NCBI GenBank assembly: GCA_900319365.1
Contig: ONOE01000015.1
Coordinates: 11,135-49,898, forward strand
Origin: an uncultured bacterium
GTDB taxonomy: Bacteria > Cyanobacteriota > Vampirovibrionia > Gastranaerophilales > Gastranaerophilaceae
Length of the DNA stretch: 38,764 nt
Reading direction: 5' to 3'
Positions 197 to 36,169 of this stretch are shown here, one piece after another. Numbering within the stretch: the first letter of the stretch is position 1; every line of letters begins with the position of its first letter. Under the pieces are notes generated by a model, which worked only from the letters and a program-made list of their open reading frames with translations, made no database searches and was not told the origin of the DNA. The position numbers and the translations under genes are program-made.

Positions 197-1402
197 TTAT
201 TCACCTATGCAAAGAGCTCTGGGACCCGAACCGCTTCCATTAGGATTAGTCTGTCCCTTTGACATTGCAGCAAGTGCGGTTTTATAAGGAATATACACCC
301 AATATATTCCCATATTAGGATTGTTCGTATCACTTTCATTTGACCATATTCTAAGCCAATCCGTGCTTTCTTTTACGCCTATATCTTTATATACGCTATC
401 TTTATTTTTGCTCCAATCTAATCCTGTAAATACTTGTCTTCTTGCACTCTGTTGACGAGCACTTTCTTCTGTAAAAGTAGAACCGGGGTACAACATTTCG
501 GCAATTTTAGCAAGCTCTGCTACGGTCGGTAATCTTCCCCCGACGACCTTTTCGCAATAATCTTTTGACATTTGCCAGTTGTCGTTACCGCCTGAATACG
601 TGGGTCTTGAGTAACTCGGATCGACTTTTTGGATTTCTTTGTACATATTATTATAATCGCTGTCAGAACCGCCTTGCACCTGACTTTTGACGCATAAATC
701 GCCCATATTTACAATGCAGCCCCTGGCTTTTAGCTCTTCTTTTTCGATGGCTTTACAATCTGACGTTATATCTTCTCTGCCTGTGAGCTTTTTATCAACT
801 CGCACAGCCAATTTTGCCCAGCAGTCTTTTATTTCAATCTTACCTCGTGCCAATATTTTCATTGTAAATTTATCAAACCCGTATTTTCTTGAATTTTGGC
901 ATTGGGTCGATTGACTTGTTTGACCGCAGTTTGGTTCTTTATCGCCGTTAACATCAACCGTTAAATAAATATAAGAATTAGGCATTCCAATTTTCAACTG
1001 AGAATCCGAAAACGTCCATATCATTCCGTCTTTTGTAAGAATAGTCTTGCCGCCGTTTTTGGTTTCTTTAACATCAAGTTTATCCGCAAAAAGTGTAATG
1101 AGTTTGGTTTGCGCATTATTTTTTTCTGCACCCCATTTTTCGCATCTGATATATCCCAGACCATCATCTAAACCCGCAGCTACTCTTTGTTTCGGATAAC
1201 AATATTGATCGTTTAGCAGGTTGCTTATTATAGTTTCTGTTGTATAAAACGCTCTTTTTGCCATAACAACGTTTTGATCGGGCAGCAAATTGTGAATAAT
1301 CGGCATCGAAATCGCCGTCAATATAGCAATTACGCCTAATGCAATCAAAAGCTCCGACAAAGTGAATGCATTTTTTTTAGATTTATTTATAAACTTCAAC
1401 AT
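197..1402 (-). CDS. Type IV prepilin-like protein with lectin/FGE-like C-terminus
   Basis: A 401-aa exported protein. Residues 1-11 are a short basic leader (MLKFINKSKKN). A class III prepilin cleavage site AFTLSELLIA follows, with Ala instead of Gly at -1, Phe at +1 and Glu at +5 of the mature protein, then about 20 hydrophobic residues. A prepilin peptidase of the PilD type would be expected to process it. It is long for a major pilin. The C-terminal third carries a cysteine-containing pattern (CEKVVGGRLPTVAELAKI, then WLRIWSN and a final RALCIGE). This resembles the DUF1566/FGE-like C-type-lectin fold seen on bacterial surface proteins, so it may be a minor pilin or pseudopilin with an adhesive tip; that role is inferred. 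A GGAG ribosome site sits 7 nt before the ATG. No other pilus genes are adjacent. The pilin-like N-terminus is well supported; the tail assignment is tentative. Confidence 0.8.
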   Translation of the reverse strand: MLKFINKSKKNAFTLSELLIALGVIAILTAISMPIIHNLLPDQNVVMAKRAFYTTETIISNLLNDQYCYPKQRVAAGLDDGLGYIRCEKWGAEKNNAQTKLITLFADKLDVKETKNGGKTILTKDGMIWTFSDSQLKIGMPNSYIYLTVDVNGDKEPNCGQTSQSTQCQNSRKYGFDKFTMKILARGKIEIKDCWAKLAVRVDKKLTGREDITSDCKAIEKEELKARGCIVNMGDLCVKSQVQGGSDSDYNNMYKEIQKVDPSYSRPTYSGGNDNWQMSKDYCEKVVGGRLPTVAELAKIAEMLYPGSTFTEESARQQSARRQVFTGLDWSKNKDSVYKDIGVKESTDWLRIWSNESDTNNPNMGIYWVYIPYKTALAAMSKGQTNPNGSGSGPRALCIGE

Positions 1403-4088: not shown

Positions 4089-4212
4089 TTCAACTTCCCT
4101 CTTAATCTTGTTCGTAAGCAAGAATATAATAACATAAACAAAATAAATATGGACAACAGGTTTTTGCGTATGGGTAAGTCTATCAGCGGATAAATCATTC
4201 ATTTGTTAAATA

Positions 4213-4289
4213 TCGGCATAGCACCCCAAGGGTATTTCCATTCTCTAATGCTCACTATGTTCTCCTAGAGAATGTGGGCACAATGCCGA
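4213..4289. repeat. Interspersed repeat, GTCGGCAT family, copy A
   Basis: Outer arms TCGGCAT (4213-4219) and ATGCCGA (4283-4289) enclose the shared core AGCACCCCAAGGGTATTT and an inner inverted pair, CATTCTCTA/TAGAGAATG. The core is identical to the one at 25652-25672 and close to that at 34261-34279. It fills most of the gap between lysS and the next minus-strand gene. A related GGGCATACCC piece follows near 4311. Confidence 0.7.
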
Positions 4290-4344
4290 ATTACACCAGA
4301 TAAGAAAATATGGGCATACCCTACTTTTATTAATGTTCTTAAAT

Positions 4345-5100
4345 CTAAAACTTGATATTTGTGCCAAAGTTGATTTGTGAGCTTGAAGGTGCGCCGTTGG
4401 TGTACTGAACCTGCCCTGCGCCTGCGCTAAAGTCCATTCTGTCAGCATCTTTAAAAGGGTTTATCTTAACAGAAACTTCCTCTTTGGTCGAACCGCTGTT
4501 TAAATTCTTGGAAAACTTATTCTGAACGGATAATTTTTTATTAATTCTGTATTCGGGAGCAACCGAAATCGTGCCTTTCATTTGCTGCGACGGGGCTGCA
4601 AGCGAATCATTGCTATATGATGCATTAACTGATGTTTTGCTGTTCAAATTGTAATTTGAATACAAAGTTCTTGTCTGCGTTGCGCTATCAGGTGTAAATG
4701 TAGTATCATACTTTGCGCCGACATTACCTTTTTTGAATTTCTTTTCTCTTTTATAAGATGTGGTTTTCTTTTGATAAGCACGATCGGTATCGTACAAATT
4801 CATATTCTGCTGTTGTACATTATCTGAAGAATAGCTCGTTTCGCTATTCAAATTTTCTTTACTGACTTTATTTGAAACTTTTTTGGTTTTGACTTTTGAC
4901 ATATCAAGTTCAATCGCACCGTCATCTTGAGAAACAGTCTGTTCGCTATCTTCGTCCTGCATTTGCAATTGCACGGGTTCTTCCTCCTGCTCGGGCGGTA
5001 CAATTATACCGTAATCGTCTGCGTTGTCAGCATAGCTGCAAGGTATTGAAAAAGCCCCGAATGCGAGCAAGATAAATGATATTTTAAGCAGTTTGTTCAT
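4345..5100 (-). CDS. Secreted protein, possibly outer-membrane associated
   Basis: Not recognised as a named family. The 251-aa product starts with a clear signal peptide (MNKLLKISFILLAFGAF...CSYA, cleavage probably after the Ala near residue 24). An acidic Glu/Asp/Gln-rich stretch follows (about 30-65), then a basic Lys/Ser/Asn-rich middle. The second half (about 130-251) alternates polar and hydrophobic residues, as in beta strands, and the protein ends in Phe (NFGTNIKF), as many outer-membrane beta proteins do. It overlaps the end of pnuC by 17 nt, so the two are surely cotranscribed. The coupling hints at a surface or periplasmic role linked to nicotinamide riboside uptake, but that is inference. 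An AGGG ribosome site lies 9 nt upstream. Low-complexity composition could mislead homology searches. Confidence 0.75.
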   Translation of the reverse strand: MNKLLKISFILLAFGAFSIPCSYADNADDYGIIVPPEQEEEPVQLQMQDEDSEQTVSQDDGAIELDMSKVKTKKVSNKVSKENLNSETSYSSDNVQQQNMNLYDTDRAYQKKTTSYKREKKFKKGNVGAKYDTTFTPDSATQTRTLYSNYNLNSKTSVNASYSNDSLAAPSQQMKGTISVAPEYRINKKLSVQNKFSKNLNSGSTKEEVSVKINPFKDADRMDFSAGAGQVQYTNGAPSSSQINFGTNIKF

Positions 5101-5782
5101 TTTTTATTTCCCTATTCCAGTTATACCAAAAATACAAGCCCAGAACAAAATACGTCGACCACATCAAAATAGTTGCAAAGCAATGTGAGCCATGCATATA
5201 TGCTCCTATCCACATTATTATACTCAATCCGTTAATAATCGTCCACAAATACCATTGTTCGATACATCTTTTTATCGTTAAAATAAACGCCACGACTGAC
5301 AAAACAGTAGTAACAGAATCAATTAAAGAATTTGAATCGCCGTAATGTTTCAAAACAAAATACAATGCCGTAATAAGCACAACCGATCCAAATGAATATA
5401 ACAGGCGTTCTTTTAGGGATAATTTCGTTTTATAAATTTCTTGCGTTTCTTTTTTCATGTGTTTTTTCCATTTTGCAATTCCGACAAACTGCATAGGGAA
5501 ATAATAGAGCATATTCAAGCATAAATTGCCCCAGAATTGATTTTGAAAAGATATTATCGAATAACAGATATTTGAAATCATTCCAAACCCGTAGCAGGAA
5601 ATTTTGCCTTTACCTGCCGTTATTGTTGCACAAATTCCGCATATTGCAGAAATCACGGCAACCGTTTTATCCCTCATATAAACGGATATCAAAACTATTA
5701 ATAAAATTTCGGCAGGAAAAATAATTCTCTCATACTTTCCCCAGCCTTTTAATTCTCCCTTAGCAAAATCTGTTATTTTCAT
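5084..5782 (-). CDS. pnuC: Nicotinamide riboside transporter PnuC
   Basis: A 232-aa inner-membrane protein with about seven hydrophobic segments, matching the PnuC family in length and pattern. Recognisable pieces are NMLYYFPMQFVGIAKW, with the aromatic/Trp cluster on a helix, and EQWYLWTIINGLSIIMW near the end, corresponding to the family's conserved W-x2-W region. PnuC carries nicotinamide riboside across the cytoplasmic membrane by facilitated diffusion, feeding NAD salvage. It is first in a two-gene unit with the secreted protein at 4345-5100. The leader contains a 9-bp inverted repeat (5798-5832) overlapping AT-rich promoter-like sequence and, further up, a strong hairpin (5842-5879), so regulation at the leader is plausible. 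Confidence 0.88.
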   Translation of the reverse strand: MKITDFAKGELKGWGKYERIIFPAEILLIVLISVYMRDKTVAVISAICGICATITAGKGKISCYGFGMISNICYSIISFQNQFWGNLCLNMLYYFPMQFVGIAKWKKHMKKETQEIYKTKLSLKERLLYSFGSVVLITALYFVLKHYGDSNSLIDSVTTVLSVVAFILTIKRCIEQWYLWTIINGLSIIMWIGAYMHGSHCFATILMWSTYFVLGLYFWYNWNREIKNEQTA

Positions 5783-7507: not shown

Positions 7508-7541
7508 TAAAAATGGAAAGGGCCTCGTCGGCCCTTTCCAT
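7508..7541 (-). terminator. Terminator downstream of HAD phosphatase 1
   Basis: On the minus strand ATGGAAAGGGCC pairs perfectly with GGCCCTTTCCAT (12-bp stem, 5-nt loop GACGA) and is followed by TTTTT. It ends transcripts coming from the HAD gene whose stop is at 7641, and insulates the nitroreductase gene. Confidence 0.88.
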
Positions 7542-7640
7542 TCTAAAATGAACAAAAATAACAGTATGAAAACTGCTATTAATATTATAAACTATTTTTC
7601 AGACTTTTCAACCCTGTTTAATACAATATGTTAAAAAATT

Positions 7641-7979
7641 TTAATTATTTTTATACCATACTTTAAAATCCCTTATTTCATTTGTTAAATCCGAATAATT
7701 GCCGTTAAAATTAATAGCTCTGTCATCAATTATCAAGTAACTCGGTTCTTTTACATTGGTAACATTTCGAACATATTTATCAAGTTTATTATCAATAAGC
7801 CATTTTGAAGTACATAAAAGATTTCTTGCTGTAAAAATTACAATCGCATAATTTTTCGAAAGATTCTCCAAAAATTTATCTGCCCCTGTTTTCATAGGAG
7901 GGAAATAAGTTTCATTGAAGTTCCCATTATAATTATTTAATACACCATCCAAATCAATAAGCACAGTCTTTTTGTACAT
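7641..7979 (-). CDS. Small HAD-superfamily phosphatase (XRE-HAD module 1)
   Basis: A 112-aa capless HAD-like protein with all four motifs. LIDLDGVLN holds the nucleophile Asp9 and general acid Asp11; FTARN holds Thr50; Lys77 lies in NVTNVK; and LIIDDRAI holds Asp85 and Asp86, which bind magnesium. The arrangement resembles small NT5C-like 5'(3')-nucleotidases and the phosphatase half of phage polynucleotide kinases, so a nucleotide or nucleic-acid phosphate is the likely substrate; this is inference. A clear AGAGG ribosome site precedes the start. The gene is divergent from the XRE regulator at 8046, with 66 bp between them. A paralogous pair sits at 29225-29914; the two HAD proteins are about 45-50% identical by eye. 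No membrane or export signal is present. Confidence 0.85.
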   Translation of the reverse strand: MYKKTVLIDLDGVLNNYNGNFNETYFPPMKTGADKFLENLSKNYAIVIFTARNLLCTSKWLIDNKLDKYVRNVTNVKEPSYLIIDDRAINFNGNYSDLTNEIRDFKVWYKNN

Positions 7980-7993
7980 ATTATACCTCTATC

Positions 7994-8045
7994 TACTGGG
8001 CACTTACCAGTAAAATTATGTTACTACTTCCAGTAAAATAATCAA
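7994..8045. promoter_or_regulatory. Operator-like repeats between HAD 1 and XRE 1
   Basis: CCAGTAAAAT occurs twice as a direct repeat (8007-8016 and 8030-8039). TACTGG (7994-7999) and CCAGTA (8007-8012) form an inverted pair, and TTACT (8021-8025) with AGTAA (8032-8036) forms another. The downstream copy's TAAAAT (8034-8039) is placed as a -10 box only 6 nt before the XRE ATG. Binding by the XRE protein here would repress both genes. Confidence 0.6.
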
Positions 8046-8261
8046 ATGGATGAAGATTTAATTTATAAATCAATAGGGAAAAGAATTAAATATATAAGAG
8101 AGAAAAAAAATCTTACTCAAGAGAAACTGGCTGAAAAATCAGGATTGAGTTTGGACTATATCGGTAAAATTGAAGTAAGCATAAATAAACCGGGGCTAAA
8201 ATCATTAATTAAAATTGCCAATGCGCTTGACATCCATATTAAAGAATTATTTAACTTTTAA
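8046..8261 (+). CDS. XRE-family helix-turn-helix regulator (module 1)
   Basis: A 71-aa protein that is almost entirely one Cro/C1-type (HTH_3) DNA-binding domain. RIKYIREKKNLTQEKLAEKSG carries the first helices and the Q-x-x-L-A motif. LSLDYIGKIE is the recognition helix region, and SLIKIANALDIHIKELFNF closes the fold. There is no extra sensory domain. It is divergent from the HAD gene at 7641-7979, with repeated CCAGTA-type sites between them, so it probably controls both itself and the phosphatase. There is no Shine-Dalgarno, and the likely -10 box lies 6 nt upstream of the ATG, consistent with a leaderless message. Its counterpart in module 2 (29225-29440) has the same length and the same Phe-rich end. 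Confidence 0.9.
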   Translation: MDEDLIYKSIGKRIKYIREKKNLTQEKLAEKSGLSLDYIGKIEVSINKPGLKSLIKIANALDIHIKELFNF

Positions 8262-29224: not shown

Positions 29225-29440
29225 TTAATCAAAATCAAAAAAACTTTTTACATTTACTTTCAAAGCTTTTGCAATATCAAATAGCGTCGCAACAGGTGCA
29301 TTAACTTCTGCCCTTTCAATCATTCCAATATAGTTTCTGCTTAATTTTAACATTTCTGCAAGTTCTTCTTGAGAAAGATTATTAGCTTTACGAGCATATT
29401 TAATATTTTTACCGAGTTTTTTCAAATTTGCCTTTTTCAT
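29225..29440 (-). CDS. XRE-family helix-turn-helix regulator (module 2)
   Basis: A 71-aa single-domain Cro/C1-type repressor: KNIKYARKANNLSQEELAEM, LSRNYIGMIER and LFDIAKALKVNVKSFFDFD. It lines up over its full length with the module 1 regulator (8046-8261), sharing IKY-R, L-Q-E-LAE, YIG-IE and the aromatic C-terminus, but the recognition helix differs. It is divergent from the HAD gene at 29573; the 132-bp gap holds TTGACA-like and inverted-repeat sequence. CATAAT lies 6 nt before the ATG with no Shine-Dalgarno. The AGCS symporter gene follows on the same strand, so read-through or shared control is possible. Confidence 0.9.
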   Translation of the reverse strand: MKKANLKKLGKNIKYARKANNLSQEELAEMLKLSRNYIGMIERAEVNAPVATLFDIAKALKVNVKSFFDFD

Positions 29441-29572
29441 ATTGTTATTATGCTTTTTATATGGTATTTTTCTACCAAATCTTATTTGTCAAAATTCTTG
29501 TAAACTACTTGCCTGTATAAAATTTCTGAGTAAAATTAATGACAAGTATGATTGTTCAAAAATGGCGGAAAA
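29441..29572. promoter_or_regulatory. Divergent control region of module 2
   Basis: TGGTA (29462-29466) and TACCA (29473-29477) form an inverted repeat with a 6-bp gap. It lies between a minus-strand TTGACA (rc of 29487-29492) and the XRE start, a good operator position. Toward the HAD gene, an AT-rich TGTATAAAAT (29514-29523) may serve as an extended -10. GGCGGA (29564-29569) is the HAD ribosome site. The operator sequence differs from the CCAGTA-type sites of module 1. Confidence 0.5.
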
Positions 29573-29914
29573 ATGGCACAAATTTTTAAAAAGAAAATAT
29601 TGATAGATTTAGATGGGGTATTAAATGAATATAAAGGGCAATATTATGCTGATATAATTCCCGAGATAAAAGCAGGAGTAGTCAATTTCTTAGAAAATTT
29701 AAGCAATATCGGAGATTTATACTTATTCACTACAAGGAATTTGAAGCTGTCCGCAAAATGGTTATATGATAATAATATAGATAAATATTTTAAAGATATA
29801 ACAAACGTAAAAATTCCTGCGTTTGTATATATTGATGACAGGGCTATTTGTTTTGAAAATAGTTTTGAAGAAACCTTGGATAAAATAAAAAATTTTAAAC
29901 CATATTGGAAATAA
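29573..29914 (+). CDS. Small HAD-superfamily phosphatase (XRE-HAD module 2)
   Basis: A 113-aa paralogue of the module 1 phosphatase. All four HAD motifs are present: LIDLDGVLN (Asp12, Asp14), LFTTRN (Thr53), TNVK (Lys80) and YIDDRAI (Asp88, Asp89). Motif spacing is nearly identical to module 1, and about half of the residues are identical by eye, with strongest conservation around the active site and in the NFLENLS/KFLENLS helix. I chose ATG 29573 because GGCGGA lies just before it. An upstream in-frame TTG at 29552 would swallow the ribosome site. It has no cap domain, so large or polymeric substrates could reach the active site. The next gene has its own promoter. Confidence 0.85.
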   Translation: MAQIFKKKILIDLDGVLNEYKGQYYADIIPEIKAGVVNFLENLSNIGDLYLFTTRNLKLSAKWLYDNNIDKYFKDITNVKIPAFVYIDDRAICFENSFEETLDKIKNFKPYWK

Positions 29915-31829: not shown

Positions 31830-34130
31830 TTATTTTTCGGTTTGTTGCTGCGGTTCTTTTTTGTATTTGCATTTAGGATTTGAACAGCATACAACATCCC
31901 CGTTTTTAAGTTTTTTTGTTACCAACAGAGATCCGCATTCGGGGCATTTTTCGCCCGTCGGCTCATTCCACAATACAAAATCACAGTCAGGATATTTGTC
32001 GCAGCCGAAAAATATGGTGCCTCGTTTTGATTTTCTCTCAACTATTGTACCCTTGCCGCATTTGGGGCAAGTTACACCCGTTGAGCGTCTGTATGGCTTT
32101 CTGTGGCGGCACTCGGGGTTTGTACATTCCATATATTTTCCGTAAGGTCCGATTTTGAATATCATATCAGAACCGCATTTTTCGCATTTTTCTTCGCAAA
32201 CTTCTTTTGGTTTGTTTTCGCCATCACCGTTTTGCTCGTCTTGCAAATCTTGCAAAATATCCAATGACAATGCGGTTTTACAGTCGGGATATCCGCTGCA
32301 GCCCAAGAATTGAGTTCCTTTTTTACTTGTTCGCAAAACCATCGGACGACCGCAATTCGGGCATTTGACATTAGTTGAAACAGTAACCCTTTGCGCTGTT
32401 TTCATTACATTATTTACTTCATTCATAAACGGAGCATAAAAATCTTTCAAAACCTTTAAATAATCTACCTTTTTATCGGCGATTTCATCAAGTTTTTCTT
32501 CCATGCCTGCCGTAAATTTGTAATCCATAATGTCTGAAAATTCGCTGACCAATTGTTTTGAGACGGCTCTGCCAAGCAATGTCGGATAAAGAACTTTGTT
32601 TTTCTTTTCAACGTATTTTCTTGTTTGAATTACGGTAATAATCGTTGCGTAAGTAGACGGACGACCTATGCCGTATTCTTCAAGAGCTTTGACAAGCGAT
32701 GCTTCGTTAAATCTCGGAGGCGGCTGTGTGAAATGTTGTTTAGGCTCAACTTTTTTGCAAACAACTTTGTCCCCTTTTTCTAAATCGGGAATTTTTTCGC
32801 CCGCATCTTTATTTTCTTCGGTTTCTTCTTCATTGTATAAAGTCAGGAAACCGTCAAATACAACCTTGCTTGTACCTGCTTTGAGAGTATAATCCCCCGC
32901 TTCGATTTCAATTGATTTATTTGCTATTTGAGCGGGTGCCATTTGAGATGACATAAATTTTTCCCAGATTAATTTGTACAATTTATACTGGTCATTATCT
33001 AAATATTTTTTTATGCTTTGAGGGGTTCTTTCAATATATGCGGGACGAATAGCTTCATGCGCATCCTGAACGTTTTGTTTGCCTTTAGCATATACATTTG
33101 CTTTTTCGGGATAATATTTTTCACCGTAATTTTGCAAAATATAATCATGCGCCGCATTTTGCGCATCATAAGATACCCTGACCGAATCAGTTCTCATATA
33201 GGTAATTAAACCGACAGGAGCACCATTCTCAAGTTCAATACCCTCATACAATTTTTGCGCAACCTGCATTGTTTTTGAAACCCCGAACCCGAGTTTTGAA
33301 CTCGCAGCCCTTTGCATTGTTGAAGTGATAAACGGAGCCGTCGGTTTTCTTTTTGTAGTTTTTTTAGTAACTTTTGAAACATTATAAATTGTCGTCGAAT
33401 CTGTTAAATAATCAACAATATCTTGCGCCTGCTGTTGATTTTTAATGGTTTTTTCTATGGATTTGCCTTTAATTTTTGAAACTTCAGATTCAAAAGTCTT
33501 GCCGTCTTTATCCAAAAGTGCATGGATTGACCAATATTCCTGAGGTTTGAAAGCTTCAATCTCATCTTCTCTTTCACAAATCATACGCAATGCAACAGAC
33601 TGAACTCTGCCCGCAGACAGTTTTCTGTTGCCCATTTCTTTCCACAAAACAGGGCTCAACTTGTAACCTACAAGTTTATCTAATATTTGCCTTGTCTGCT
33701 GCGCTTTTACCATATCCATATCAATGGAGCGAGGGTTCTCAACGGAATGTTTAACGGCCTTGGGCGTGATTTCGTTGAAAACAATTCTGCATACTTTGTC
33801 ATCGGGAACTTTTAAAACCTGTCTGACATGCCAAGCTATAGCCTCTCCCTCACGGTCGGGGTCGGAAGCCAGATAAACTTTGCCCGCTTTTTTTGCCAGA
33901 TCGTTTAATTTACGCACAACCTGCTGTTTCCCGGGGATAATTTCAAACTTCATTTTAAAATTATCGTTAACATCAAAACCCAAATTATCCGTTGACGGAT
34001 CTTTTGTAGGTAAATTACGAATATGACCGTAACTTGCCTCTATTTGATATCCGTCGCCCAAAATCTTTTTTATTGTCTTTGATTTAGCCGGAGATTCGAC
34101 TATAACAAGTGCTTTTTCTTTCGTTGCCAT
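31830..34130 (-). CDS. topA: DNA topoisomerase I (type IA)
   Basis: A 766-aa enzyme that relaxes negative supercoils. The Toprim domain (ALVIVESPAKSKTIKKILG and YLASDPDREGEAIAWH) holds the metal-binding acidic triad. The active-site Tyr is in GLITYMRTDSVRVS. The C-terminus has four tandem C4 zinc ribbons (CPNCGRPM..., CEKCGSDM..., CPKCGKGT..., CPECGSLL...), the last ending at a short Gln-rich tail. Length is normal for bacterial TopA. I chose the ATG at 34130; an in-frame TTG at 34142 adds four residues. No strong ribosome site is seen. The gene is monocistronic, with a repeat element and about 120 bp of AT-rich DNA upstream. Confidence 0.97.
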   Translation of the reverse strand: MATKEKALVIVESPAKSKTIKKILGDGYQIEASYGHIRNLPTKDPSTDNLGFDVNDNFKMKFEIIPGKQQVVRKLNDLAKKAGKVYLASDPDREGEAIAWHVRQVLKVPDDKVCRIVFNEITPKAVKHSVENPRSIDMDMVKAQQTRQILDKLVGYKLSPVLWKEMGNRKLSAGRVQSVALRMICEREDEIEAFKPQEYWSIHALLDKDGKTFESEVSKIKGKSIEKTIKNQQQAQDIVDYLTDSTTIYNVSKVTKKTTKRKPTAPFITSTMQRAASSKLGFGVSKTMQVAQKLYEGIELENGAPVGLITYMRTDSVRVSYDAQNAAHDYILQNYGEKYYPEKANVYAKGKQNVQDAHEAIRPAYIERTPQSIKKYLDNDQYKLYKLIWEKFMSSQMAPAQIANKSIEIEAGDYTLKAGTSKVVFDGFLTLYNEEETEENKDAGEKIPDLEKGDKVVCKKVEPKQHFTQPPPRFNEASLVKALEEYGIGRPSTYATIITVIQTRKYVEKKNKVLYPTLLGRAVSKQLVSEFSDIMDYKFTAGMEEKLDEIADKKVDYLKVLKDFYAPFMNEVNNVMKTAQRVTVSTNVKCPNCGRPMVLRTSKKGTQFLGCSGYPDCKTALSLDILQDLQDEQNGDGENKPKEVCEEKCEKCGSDMIFKIGPYGKYMECTNPECRHRKPYRRSTGVTCPKCGKGTIVERKSKRGTIFFGCDKYPDCDFVLWNEPTGEKCPECGSLLVTKKLKNGDVVCCSNPKCKYKKEPQQQTEK

Positions 34131-34251
34131 TTTACTTTTCAAAACCTGATTTATATAAAAAATTAAATTTATATTCTTAGCCTACCACAATTTATATACG
34201 TTAGCAAATTATTGATTTTGCTTTATAAAAAAAACATGCAAAATTTATAAT

Positions 34252-34316: not shown

Positions 34317-35081
34317 TTATTCATTCGCTATTCGTTGTTTTGCGATTTCAAAATATTCTTTATTCAGTTCTATTCCGATAAATTTTCTGTTCAAATGTTT
34401 GCACGCAACACCCGTTGTACCTGAACCCATTGTAAAATCAAGTATTGTATCATTTTCATCCGAATACGTTTTAACAAGATATTCCATCAGTTCAACCGGC
34501 TTTTGGGTCGGATGAAGATTGGAAGTCAAAATATCCCTCTTAAATTGAACAATCTGAAGCGGATATCTTTTGCCATTATCCTTGTACTCATAAGGTTTTC
34601 TGTTTTGACTGTCCACAAGCACTCCGAGTTTTCCGTTTTTAATTTTATTCGTGCGCTTAGCGCCGTTATATTCCACCATTTGCGGATTATAAACGGGCTG
34701 TTTTTTATAAAAAACACAAATAGTTTCTATAACTTTTCCGGGTCTTTTTTTTAGCTGAAAAATATTTGTTGCACGCTCTTTTTGCCAATAAATATCATAT
34801 TTAAATTCATTTATATCGGAAATTCTTAAATAGCTGTTAAACGGCTCGTTCCCGAACAGCAAAATCGGCGTGTTATCATGCCTGATAGCTTTTAAACAAT
34901 CCCACATATCATCAAACGGTATAACACTATCCCATTCGCAAGCAGTCGTGCCGTACGGGATATCGGTAATAATTGAATTAACCCTCACCCCTTGAGATAT
35001 TAATTCTTTCATAACCTCAATGCAATCGCCGTTATACAAGGTTATATCTTTATTTATTTCAGTTTTGTTAAAATTTTTCAT
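34317..35081 (-). CDS. Solitary beta-class DNA methyltransferase
   Basis: A 254-aa SAM-dependent DNA methyltransferase of the N6-adenine/N4-cytosine type. The catalytic motif IV is IITDIPYGT (D-I-P-Y, residues 40-43), near the N-terminus. The SAM-binding motif I, ILDFTMGSGTTGVACKHLN, is near the C-terminus, which is the beta-class order also found in DpnA. A His-Pro-Thr-Gln-Lys-Pro (HPTQKPVELMEYL) segment, typical of the class, precedes motif I. No restriction endonuclease lies nearby. It starts 2 nt after dprA ends and must be cotranscribed with it, which suggests methylation of incoming transforming DNA. Target sequence unknown. It could also be a phage-derived orphan. Confidence 0.92.
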   Translation of the reverse strand: MKNFNKTEINKDITLYNGDCIEVMKELISQGVRVNSIITDIPYGTTACEWDSVIPFDDMWDCLKAIRHDNTPILLFGNEPFNSYLRISDINEFKYDIYWQKERATNIFQLKKRPGKVIETICVFYKKQPVYNPQMVEYNGAKRTNKIKNGKLGVLVDSQNRKPYEYKDNGKRYPLQIVQFKRDILTSNLHPTQKPVELMEYLVKTYSDENDTILDFTMGSGTTGVACKHLNRKFIGIELNKEYFEIAKQRIANE

Positions 35082-35083
35082 TT

Positions 35084-36169
35084 TTATACAGCTCTGTATC
35101 TGTCGCCGTTAACCTGTTTAATCATACCTTTTAATTCCATTGTAGTAAGGTTCATAAGCAGATTATCCAAGCTCAATCCCGTCAATGTCGAAAGCTCGTC
35201 AATTCCCCGTTCTTCGATTTTTATATTATTATAAATTTTTTCTTCATCGGGAGTAAGCGTAGGCAAAGTCAACTGCGTAGGATTATCTTCCGTTCGTTCC
35301 CAACCGAGTGCATCTAAAATATCATTGCCCTCAGTTACCATAGTTGCACCGTTTTTCAAAAGTTTATAAATTCCTTGAGTATTCGGATTAGAAATATCCC
35401 CGGGCATACACATCAATTCTCTGCCCTGTTCAAGTGTTAAATTTGCGGTAATCAACGCACCGCTTCTTAACGATGCCTCAACAACCAAAGTTCCGTACGA
35501 CAATCCCGAAACTATTCTGTTTCTTTGCGGGAATCTGAATTTTATAGGTTCAAATGTCGGATAATATTCTGTTACGACAGCACCGTATCCGTTTTCAATA
35601 TTTTCATAAAGTGTCTTATTCTGCGACGGATAAACATAGTCAAACCCGCTTGCTATAACGCCGATTGTTTTTAAATTATTTTCAATAGCCGATGCATGCG
35701 CAACCGTATCAATGCCCGATGCAAGCCCCGAAACTATGCAGATATCTGTATTGCCGAGCCCTGAAATAATTTTGCGCAAATTATCTCTTGCACCCGAACT
35801 TGCCTTTCTTGACCCGACAACCGCAAGAGTTTTTCCCAAATTACATTCAAACAATTTACCTTTGTAATACAAAACGACAGGCGGATTTTCGATATTTTTA
35901 AGCATATAAGGATAATTTTCATCTTCTAAGGTTAAAAAATTTATCCCTTTAGTTTCAACTGTTGCAAAAACTTTGTCTATATCAATTTTATCCCTGCATT
36001 GAATAAAATTTTGCGCCTTTTTAATGCTTAAACCGTCTATATTTTTTAAATCTTCCAAACTGCAATTGAAAGCTTTTTCAATATCGCCGAAGTAATCGTA
36101 CAGCCGTTTAATAAAGCGGCTGTCAATTTGCTCTATTGATGAAAATGCTATCCAATATTTGTAGTTCAT
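35084..36169 (-). CDS. dprA: DNA processing protein DprA
   Basis: A 361-aa protein that binds incoming single-stranded DNA during natural transformation and loads RecA. After an N-terminal SAM/HhH-like region (FNCSLEDLKNIDGLSIKKAQ), the Rossmann core has AVVGSRKASSGARDN-type sequence, IVSGLASGIDTVAHASA, GVIASGFDYVYP, FPQRNRIVSGLSYGTLVVEA and RELMCMPGDISNP, all classic DprA blocks. A winged-helix domain (IYNNIKIEERGIDELSTLTG onward) closes the protein. It overlaps the TPR protein upstream by 4 nt and is 2 nt from the methyltransferase. This implies that the organism keeps at least part of a competence pathway, consistent with the prepilin-like gene elsewhere in the window. Confidence 0.96.
   Translation of the reverse strand: MNYKYWIAFSSIEQIDSRFIKRLYDYFGDIEKAFNCSLEDLKNIDGLSIKKAQNFIQCRDKIDIDKVFATVETKGINFLTLEDENYPYMLKNIENPPVVLYYKGKLFECNLGKTLAVVGSRKASSGARDNLRKIISGLGNTDICIVSGLASGIDTVAHASAIENNLKTIGVIASGFDYVYPSQNKTLYENIENGYGAVVTEYYPTFEPIKFRFPQRNRIVSGLSYGTLVVEASLRSGALITANLTLEQGRELMCMPGDISNPNTQGIYKLLKNGATMVTEGNDILDALGWERTEDNPTQLTLPTLTPDEEKIYNNIKIEERGIDELSTLTGLSLDNLLMNLTTMELKGMIKQVNGDRYRAV

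Follow-up and report, generated by a model that had tools for sequence, protein, structure and literature searches.

The window (the whole stretch of 38,764 nucleotides analysed here) contains two copies of a divergent gene pair in which a small XRE regulator gene is set back to back with a gene for a short HAD phosphatase (Table 1). When the open reading frames were rechecked, the coordinates and reading frames given for both pairs in a preliminary description of this DNA proved correct. Its proposal that both partners are homologous between the copies was also confirmed, as the two HADs are 46% identical (BLASTP E 4e-35; 45-50% had been estimated by eye) and the two XREs 48% identical (BLASTP E 8e-17). 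The HAD locus of copy 1 adjoins nrdG and nrdD, and that of copy 2 is flanked by a Na/Ala symporter and DUF4127. Elsewhere in the window a solitary DNA methyltransferase-like gene (34317-36169, minus strand) adjoins a DprA-like gene and lies near topoisomerase I (31830-34142), these names being drawn from N-terminal sequence alone.

Table 1. Genes and predicted regulatory sites of the two XRE/HAD loci in the window.
Feature	Position	Strand	Description	Basis or remark
HAD copy 1	7641..7979	-	capless HAD phosphatase, 112 aa	ORF, invariant motifs, AF2 model
XRE copy 1	8046..8261	+	single-domain HTH_3, predicted repressor, 71 aa, subtype X5	HTH_3 E 7.5e-16
Candidate outer operator, copy 1	7994..8012	.	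TACTGG N7 CCAGTA	34-52 bp from XRE start
Candidate inner operator, copy 1	8021..8036	.	TTACTGG-AAG-TAGTAA on minus strand	near XRE start
Terminator 3' of HAD copy 1	7510..7544	-	stem 15 bp	
XRE copy 2	29225..29440	-	HTH_3, predicted repressor, 71 aa, subtype other than that of copy 1	E 2e-15
HAD copy 2	29573..29914	+	capless HAD phosphatase, 113 aa from in-frame ATG	alignment
Likely operator, copy 2	29542..29555	.	ACAA N6 TTGT, directly 5' of HAD start	conservation
Likely second operator, copy 2	29474..29489	.	CTACCAA..TTGTCA block	recurs 5' of several XRE2-type relatives

The HAD is a capless (C0) member of its superfamily, with the DxDG, T/S, K and DD motifs all present within 112 residues, and the AF2 model of copy 1 (pLDDT 93) shows the Rossmann-like core without a cap insert. 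An alignment of 40 relatives revealed no or almost no variation at D9, D11, T50, K77, D85 and D86, in line with the earlier observation that all catalytic residues are kept, and a median dN/dS of about 0.07 for the XRE and 0.08 for the HAD (159 non-independent pairs) indicates that both partners are under purifying selection. The model aligned with MDP-1, SCP1 and 2obb at Z of about 10-11, and the dNT-like structure 3bwv was also among the close fold matches, over the core only. Among viral proteins the top fold match was a PNKP-phosphatase-domain protein (E 3.7e-5, 24% identity), with capsule phosphatases also found among the matches. Matches to curated families were all poor, being either generic HAD or, through the N-terminal motif only, NIF. 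Both copies matched the small phage HADs of PHROG 1238 (E about 6e-8 to 1e-9), copy 2 scored 17 bits against TIGR01689 (EcbF/BcbF), far under the curated cut-off of 162, and among annotated phages and plasmids the direct matches had no more than 24-35% identity. The protein does not belong with the NT5C deoxyribonucleotidases, having no NT5C match in Pfam and no cap. HAD relatives that are 42-46% identical and have no XRE occur on a set of viral contigs (L188-L197); in those read, the gene has large tail-like proteins on one side and a protein that binds peptidoglycan on the other, and the look of these contigs suggests viruses of rumen archaea. The window XREs are plain HTH_3 proteins (58.4 and 57.0 bits against a cut-off of 23), for which a Pfam domain search found no sensor domain.

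HAD searches covered 386 genomes of the phylum Cyanobacteriota, which are mostly draft, with gene starts set mechanically and related copies that are not independent of one another. The HAD family is patchy, occurring in 114 of the 386 genomes, nearly all of them from one family, with 1 to 13 matches per genome when fragments are counted. A divergent small XRE was found at 132 of the 159 HAD copies that are full-length and have a readable context (83%), compared to 24 of 812 other genes (3%), and the HAD-XRE gap is conserved with a median of 67 bp. The preliminary description had allowed that the pairing would be accidental if it were rare elsewhere, and it is instead frequent. XRE-like genes are indeed common (27 matches in the window's genome), so that a chance adjacency of small, abundant genes might be imagined, but the counts refute it, and together with the conserved gap and operators they leave this explanation practically no probability. 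At a further 13 of the 159 copies the HAD faces another DNA-binding-like protein (DUF6471-like at 8, AbrB-like at 3 and RHH-like at 2, names that rest on weak Pfam scores); one AbrB-like and one RHH-like case lie 340-400 bp from the HAD, with a small XRE nearer in the RHH-like case. Two or more divergent XREs are stacked before the HAD at 17 loci. In the window's genome (1.95 Mb in 37 contigs) the HAD occurs five times; two copies are broken, one by two stop codons and one by a frameshift, while the divergent XRE is intact at all five. A programmed frameshift was considered and is not supported, since the breaks sit at different places. In another genome (L069, positions 4104-5483, genome G018) tandem modules carry near-identical HADs and two different XRE subtypes.

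Although regulator and enzyme are repeatedly found together, they have not travelled as one unit. A cluster of 33 HADs from more than 10 genera, with a mean amino-acid distance of 12%, carries at least five unrelated XRE subtypes (borders set arbitrarily at 65% identity by single linkage), and for HAD pairs less than 5% apart 42% of the corresponding XRE pairs, taking the nearest XRE, are more than 60% apart. When repressor type was mapped onto the HAD tree it changed 52 times, against a minimum of 13 and a shuffled mean of 72, so the association is above random yet far from co-inheritance. The idea of a module, as put forward in the preliminary description, therefore survives as recurrent association but not as co-retention: unrelated XRE subtypes sit on near-identical HADs, other DNA-binding folds also occupy the XRE slot, and the same XRE and operator block stands before pilin-like and glycosyltransferase genes. 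Because of the 52 subtype changes, and because the same cassettes precede pilin-like genes, we reject a dedicated two-gene XRE/HAD unit. These pairings also bear on the suggestion that the HAD is a toxin and the XRE its antitoxin in an addiction-like pair. The small size of the pairs, the broken HADs beside intact XREs and the shuffling of partners among XRE, AbrB-like and RHH-like proteins, all of which are known antitoxin folds, would agree with such a role. On the other hand, the genes are divergent at 132 of the 159 full-length copies and do not form the two-gene operon of type II systems, XREs of the same types are also found with pilin-like genes, and the service of near-identical HADs by unrelated XREs and folds makes direct neutralisation of a toxin unlikely. 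Since some lineages moreover keep an intact HAD without a regulator, we consider addiction improbable and do not favour it. An HI1420-type antidote at locus L337 was rejected as the HAD's partner, an XRE of another subtype lying between the two.

Each XRE subtype examined has its own conserved palindromic repeats in the intergenic region; operators were called by conservation alone and the promoter by pattern match. For subtype X5, to which the copy 1 regulator belongs, TACTGG N7 CCAGTA was found in 6 of 6 HAD-linked members with the spacer left free to vary, and within the window this motif has a single site at one mismatch or fewer, where 0 are expected. The outer operator of X5 lies at a constant distance from the XRE, whatever the cargo, in relatives linked to a HAD as in those linked to a pilin-like gene, and the TTACTGGATnTnNTAA block of the inner operator of copy 1 is conserved in X5 relatives. 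For copy 2, GACAAGTnnGATT precedes the cargo in XRE2-type relatives, be it a HAD (L448), a pilin-like gene (L446) or an exported protein (L450). Other subtypes have other palindromes, again with spacers free, including TTTTGCA N4 TGCAAAA and TTGTCCGC..CGGACAA. By eye, the HAD- and pilin-linked X5 cassettes show a TTGACA-like hexamer beside the start of the XRE and, in the interval that separates the operators, a TAACATAAT stretch, and these suggest that the predicted cargo promoter lies inside the cassette.

Of 191 genomes, 52 have the X5 XRE, almost all of them as a single copy. We fetched 30 X5 loci, and at 17 of these the gene divergent from the XRE encodes a type IV pilin-like N-terminus (a motif that picks out 0.65% of background genes), whereas a HAD is the partner at 5 by our automatic rule and at one more (L396) where it lies upstream on the same strand; the remainder face GT8 or GT92 glycosyltransferases or genes without a family call. 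Two further XRE subtypes also have mixed cargos (HAD, pilin-like, GT8 and signal-peptide proteins). HAD- and pilin-linked X5 cassettes share 76% identity across the segment bounded by the XRE start codon and the far edge of the outer operator, and identity then drops to 31% over the 40 bp past the outer operator. Since the XRE and operator block stands before varied genes and similarity ends past the outer operator, the portable unit is the repressor/operator cassette, probably with its promoter included, and the HAD is one cargo among several. A pilin-like gene is also present in the window (197-1402, minus strand), with no small XRE beside this copy; the genome contains at least five paralogues of it, which show 78-84% DNA identity at the 5' end and in several cases lie at contig ends. 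Five pilin-like paralogues lie near five different small XREs (L429, L430, L431, L433 and L441).

Comparison of occupied and empty sites in related genomes supports the earlier view that the XRE/HAD pair is portable and found in different neighbourhoods. The same two genes flank a stretch of about 800 bp where the pair is present (L077, genome G015) and of about 150 bp where it is absent (G033), and at a second site the gap is about 820 bp with the pair (L088, genome G006) versus about 80 bp without (G009). A third genome (G024) carries a related pair at this second site in the opposite orientation. In these two comparisons no recombinase was found within the insert, and no target-site duplications were seen by eye at either empty site. 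The orthologous nrdG and DUF4127 loci in the genus have no XRE/HAD pair, with flanks too diverged to place its ends. These neighbourhoods are relevant to a reading in which the HAD works in nucleotide metabolism as a deoxyribonucleotidase that the XRE tunes. The position of copy 1 beside nrdG and nrdD, the adjacency of 11 HAD loci to phosphopentomutase and the fold match of the modelled HAD to dNT-like 3bwv would favour it, but the nrdG-nrdD loci of other genomes in the genus do without the pair, for which reason a functional link of the HAD to nrdGD was rejected. In addition, copy 2 has a symporter and DUF4127 as its neighbours, the majority of the remaining sites are unrelated, and the XRE has no sensor domain. 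We consider this the least credible of the functional roles that we weighed. The phosphopentomutase-side loci (L018, L020, L022, L076, L166, L181, L318, L335, L342, L346 and L348) come from two genera, have different XREs or none, and represent either a recurrent site or an old insertion.

Phage defence would offer another account, in which infection or host shut-off relieves the XRE and the HAD dephosphorylates nucleotides and halts phage growth. Swappable divergent regulators would resemble, by analogy, those of defence systems, and regulator exchange, patchy horizontal spread, the 1 to 13 matches per genome and the decay of HADs beside intact XREs are in keeping with it, as is the resemblance of the XREs to CapH and restriction-modification control proteins in a PADLOC comparison and the single module that adjoins terminase and portal genes. 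There is also precedent in the CARF-HAD effectors, which hydrolyse ATP, dATP and IMP and cause growth arrest (PMC12715507), and the defence system DS-9 includes a HAD (PMC13092281). Against this, no PADLOC defence model matched the HAD above noise (no match, or E 0.04), the neighbours checked are diverse with no recurrent defence family, and the same cassettes also stand before genes of the pilin-like and glycosyltransferase kinds. Overall we regard an anti-phage effector as unlikely, though less so than addiction. The module beside the terminase and portal genes (L187, 3701-4312) lies directly next to them, with a tRNA-His and an integrase end 3 kb away; the contig is classed as viral, and the module may or may not be phage-borne.

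On balance we lean towards the HAD being an accessory phosphatase gene under a portable, swappable repressor/operator cassette by which it is individually switched. The cassette would consist of the 70-aa XRE gene and about 55 bp of DNA in which two copies of a subtype-specific palindrome and, judged by its pattern, the divergent gene's promoter are located. Both palindromes are most likely bound by the XRE, which would thereby silence the divergent gene as well as its own. At the window loci the cargo is the small HAD phosphatase, predicted to be active, and elsewhere the same cassettes would drive type IV pilin-like genes, GT8/GT92 glycosyltransferases and exported proteins. Paralogues within one genome carry different and presumably non-cross-reacting cassettes, so that each could be switched independently, and the outcome would be that accessory functions, mostly those of the envelope, are expressed rarely or conditionally. 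The HAD itself may remove a phosphate group, either from a precursor of envelope glycan or from a nucleotide. The 14 of 159 HADs without a recognised divergent regulator count against the cassette reading, as do the many XREs whose partner gene has no family call.

More tentatively, and as a possibility we would not bet on, a shared pool of orthogonal cassettes might be swapped among pilin-like, glycosyltransferase, exported-protein and HAD genes so that every paralogue could be switched on its own, giving a surface and accessory variation coded by repressors and not by DNA inversion or slippage. Counting against the envelope side of the favoured reading are the cytosolic location of most HADs and the fact that some cassette cargos are not envelope proteins. 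A HAD variant at three loci (L276, L309 and L329) has an N-terminal signal peptide, e.g. MKKLYLIFLFLFLATTTFGAD-MEKRKTIMIDLDGVLN, and is therefore possibly exported, which weakly fits an envelope link. If these ideas are correct, a large and mostly uncultured gut lineage holds many natural repressor-operator pairs of differing DNA specificity, which stand before individual accessory genes and pass from gene to gene and from genus to genus, and thereby a simple route to diverse surface and enzyme expression within a population. It would also supply orthogonal regulators and offer a concrete test of the way in which small mobile genes are silenced, and at least 159 active-looking HAD phosphatases would gain a putative regulatory context.

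A search of the available literature library found no paper on the XRE/HAD pair, and the individual on-off control of accessory genes by portable repressor cassettes looks unreported. The closest parallels are phage-type repressor/operator switches and the control (C) proteins of restriction-modification systems, with which the cassettes share a small single-domain XRE, divergent promoters, paired operators and an implied autoregulation, all as predicted; here, however, a single accessory enzyme or surface gene is controlled, and within a bacterial family the cassettes move from one cargo to another, unrelated one. Type II toxin-antitoxin systems with shuffled antitoxin DNA-binding domains are likewise small two-gene accessory loci with partner swapping, multiple copies per genome and decay of the putative effector, but the genes described here are divergent, give no sign of protein-protein neutralisation as far as their sequences go, and share their repressors with pilin-like genes. 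EcbF/BcbF (TIGR01689) and the small phage HADs of PHROG 1238 are similar in being short capless HADs with an IDDRA-type motif IV, although the window HAD falls far below the TIGR01689 cut-off and the viral relatives, with one exception, have no adjacent XRE. Finally, the CARF-HAD (Chp) effectors of type III CRISPR systems also employ a HAD phosphatase as effector, but Chp sits in the membrane and carries a CARF sensor, whereas the protein at copy 1 is a stand-alone HAD of 112 aa with a separate repressor.
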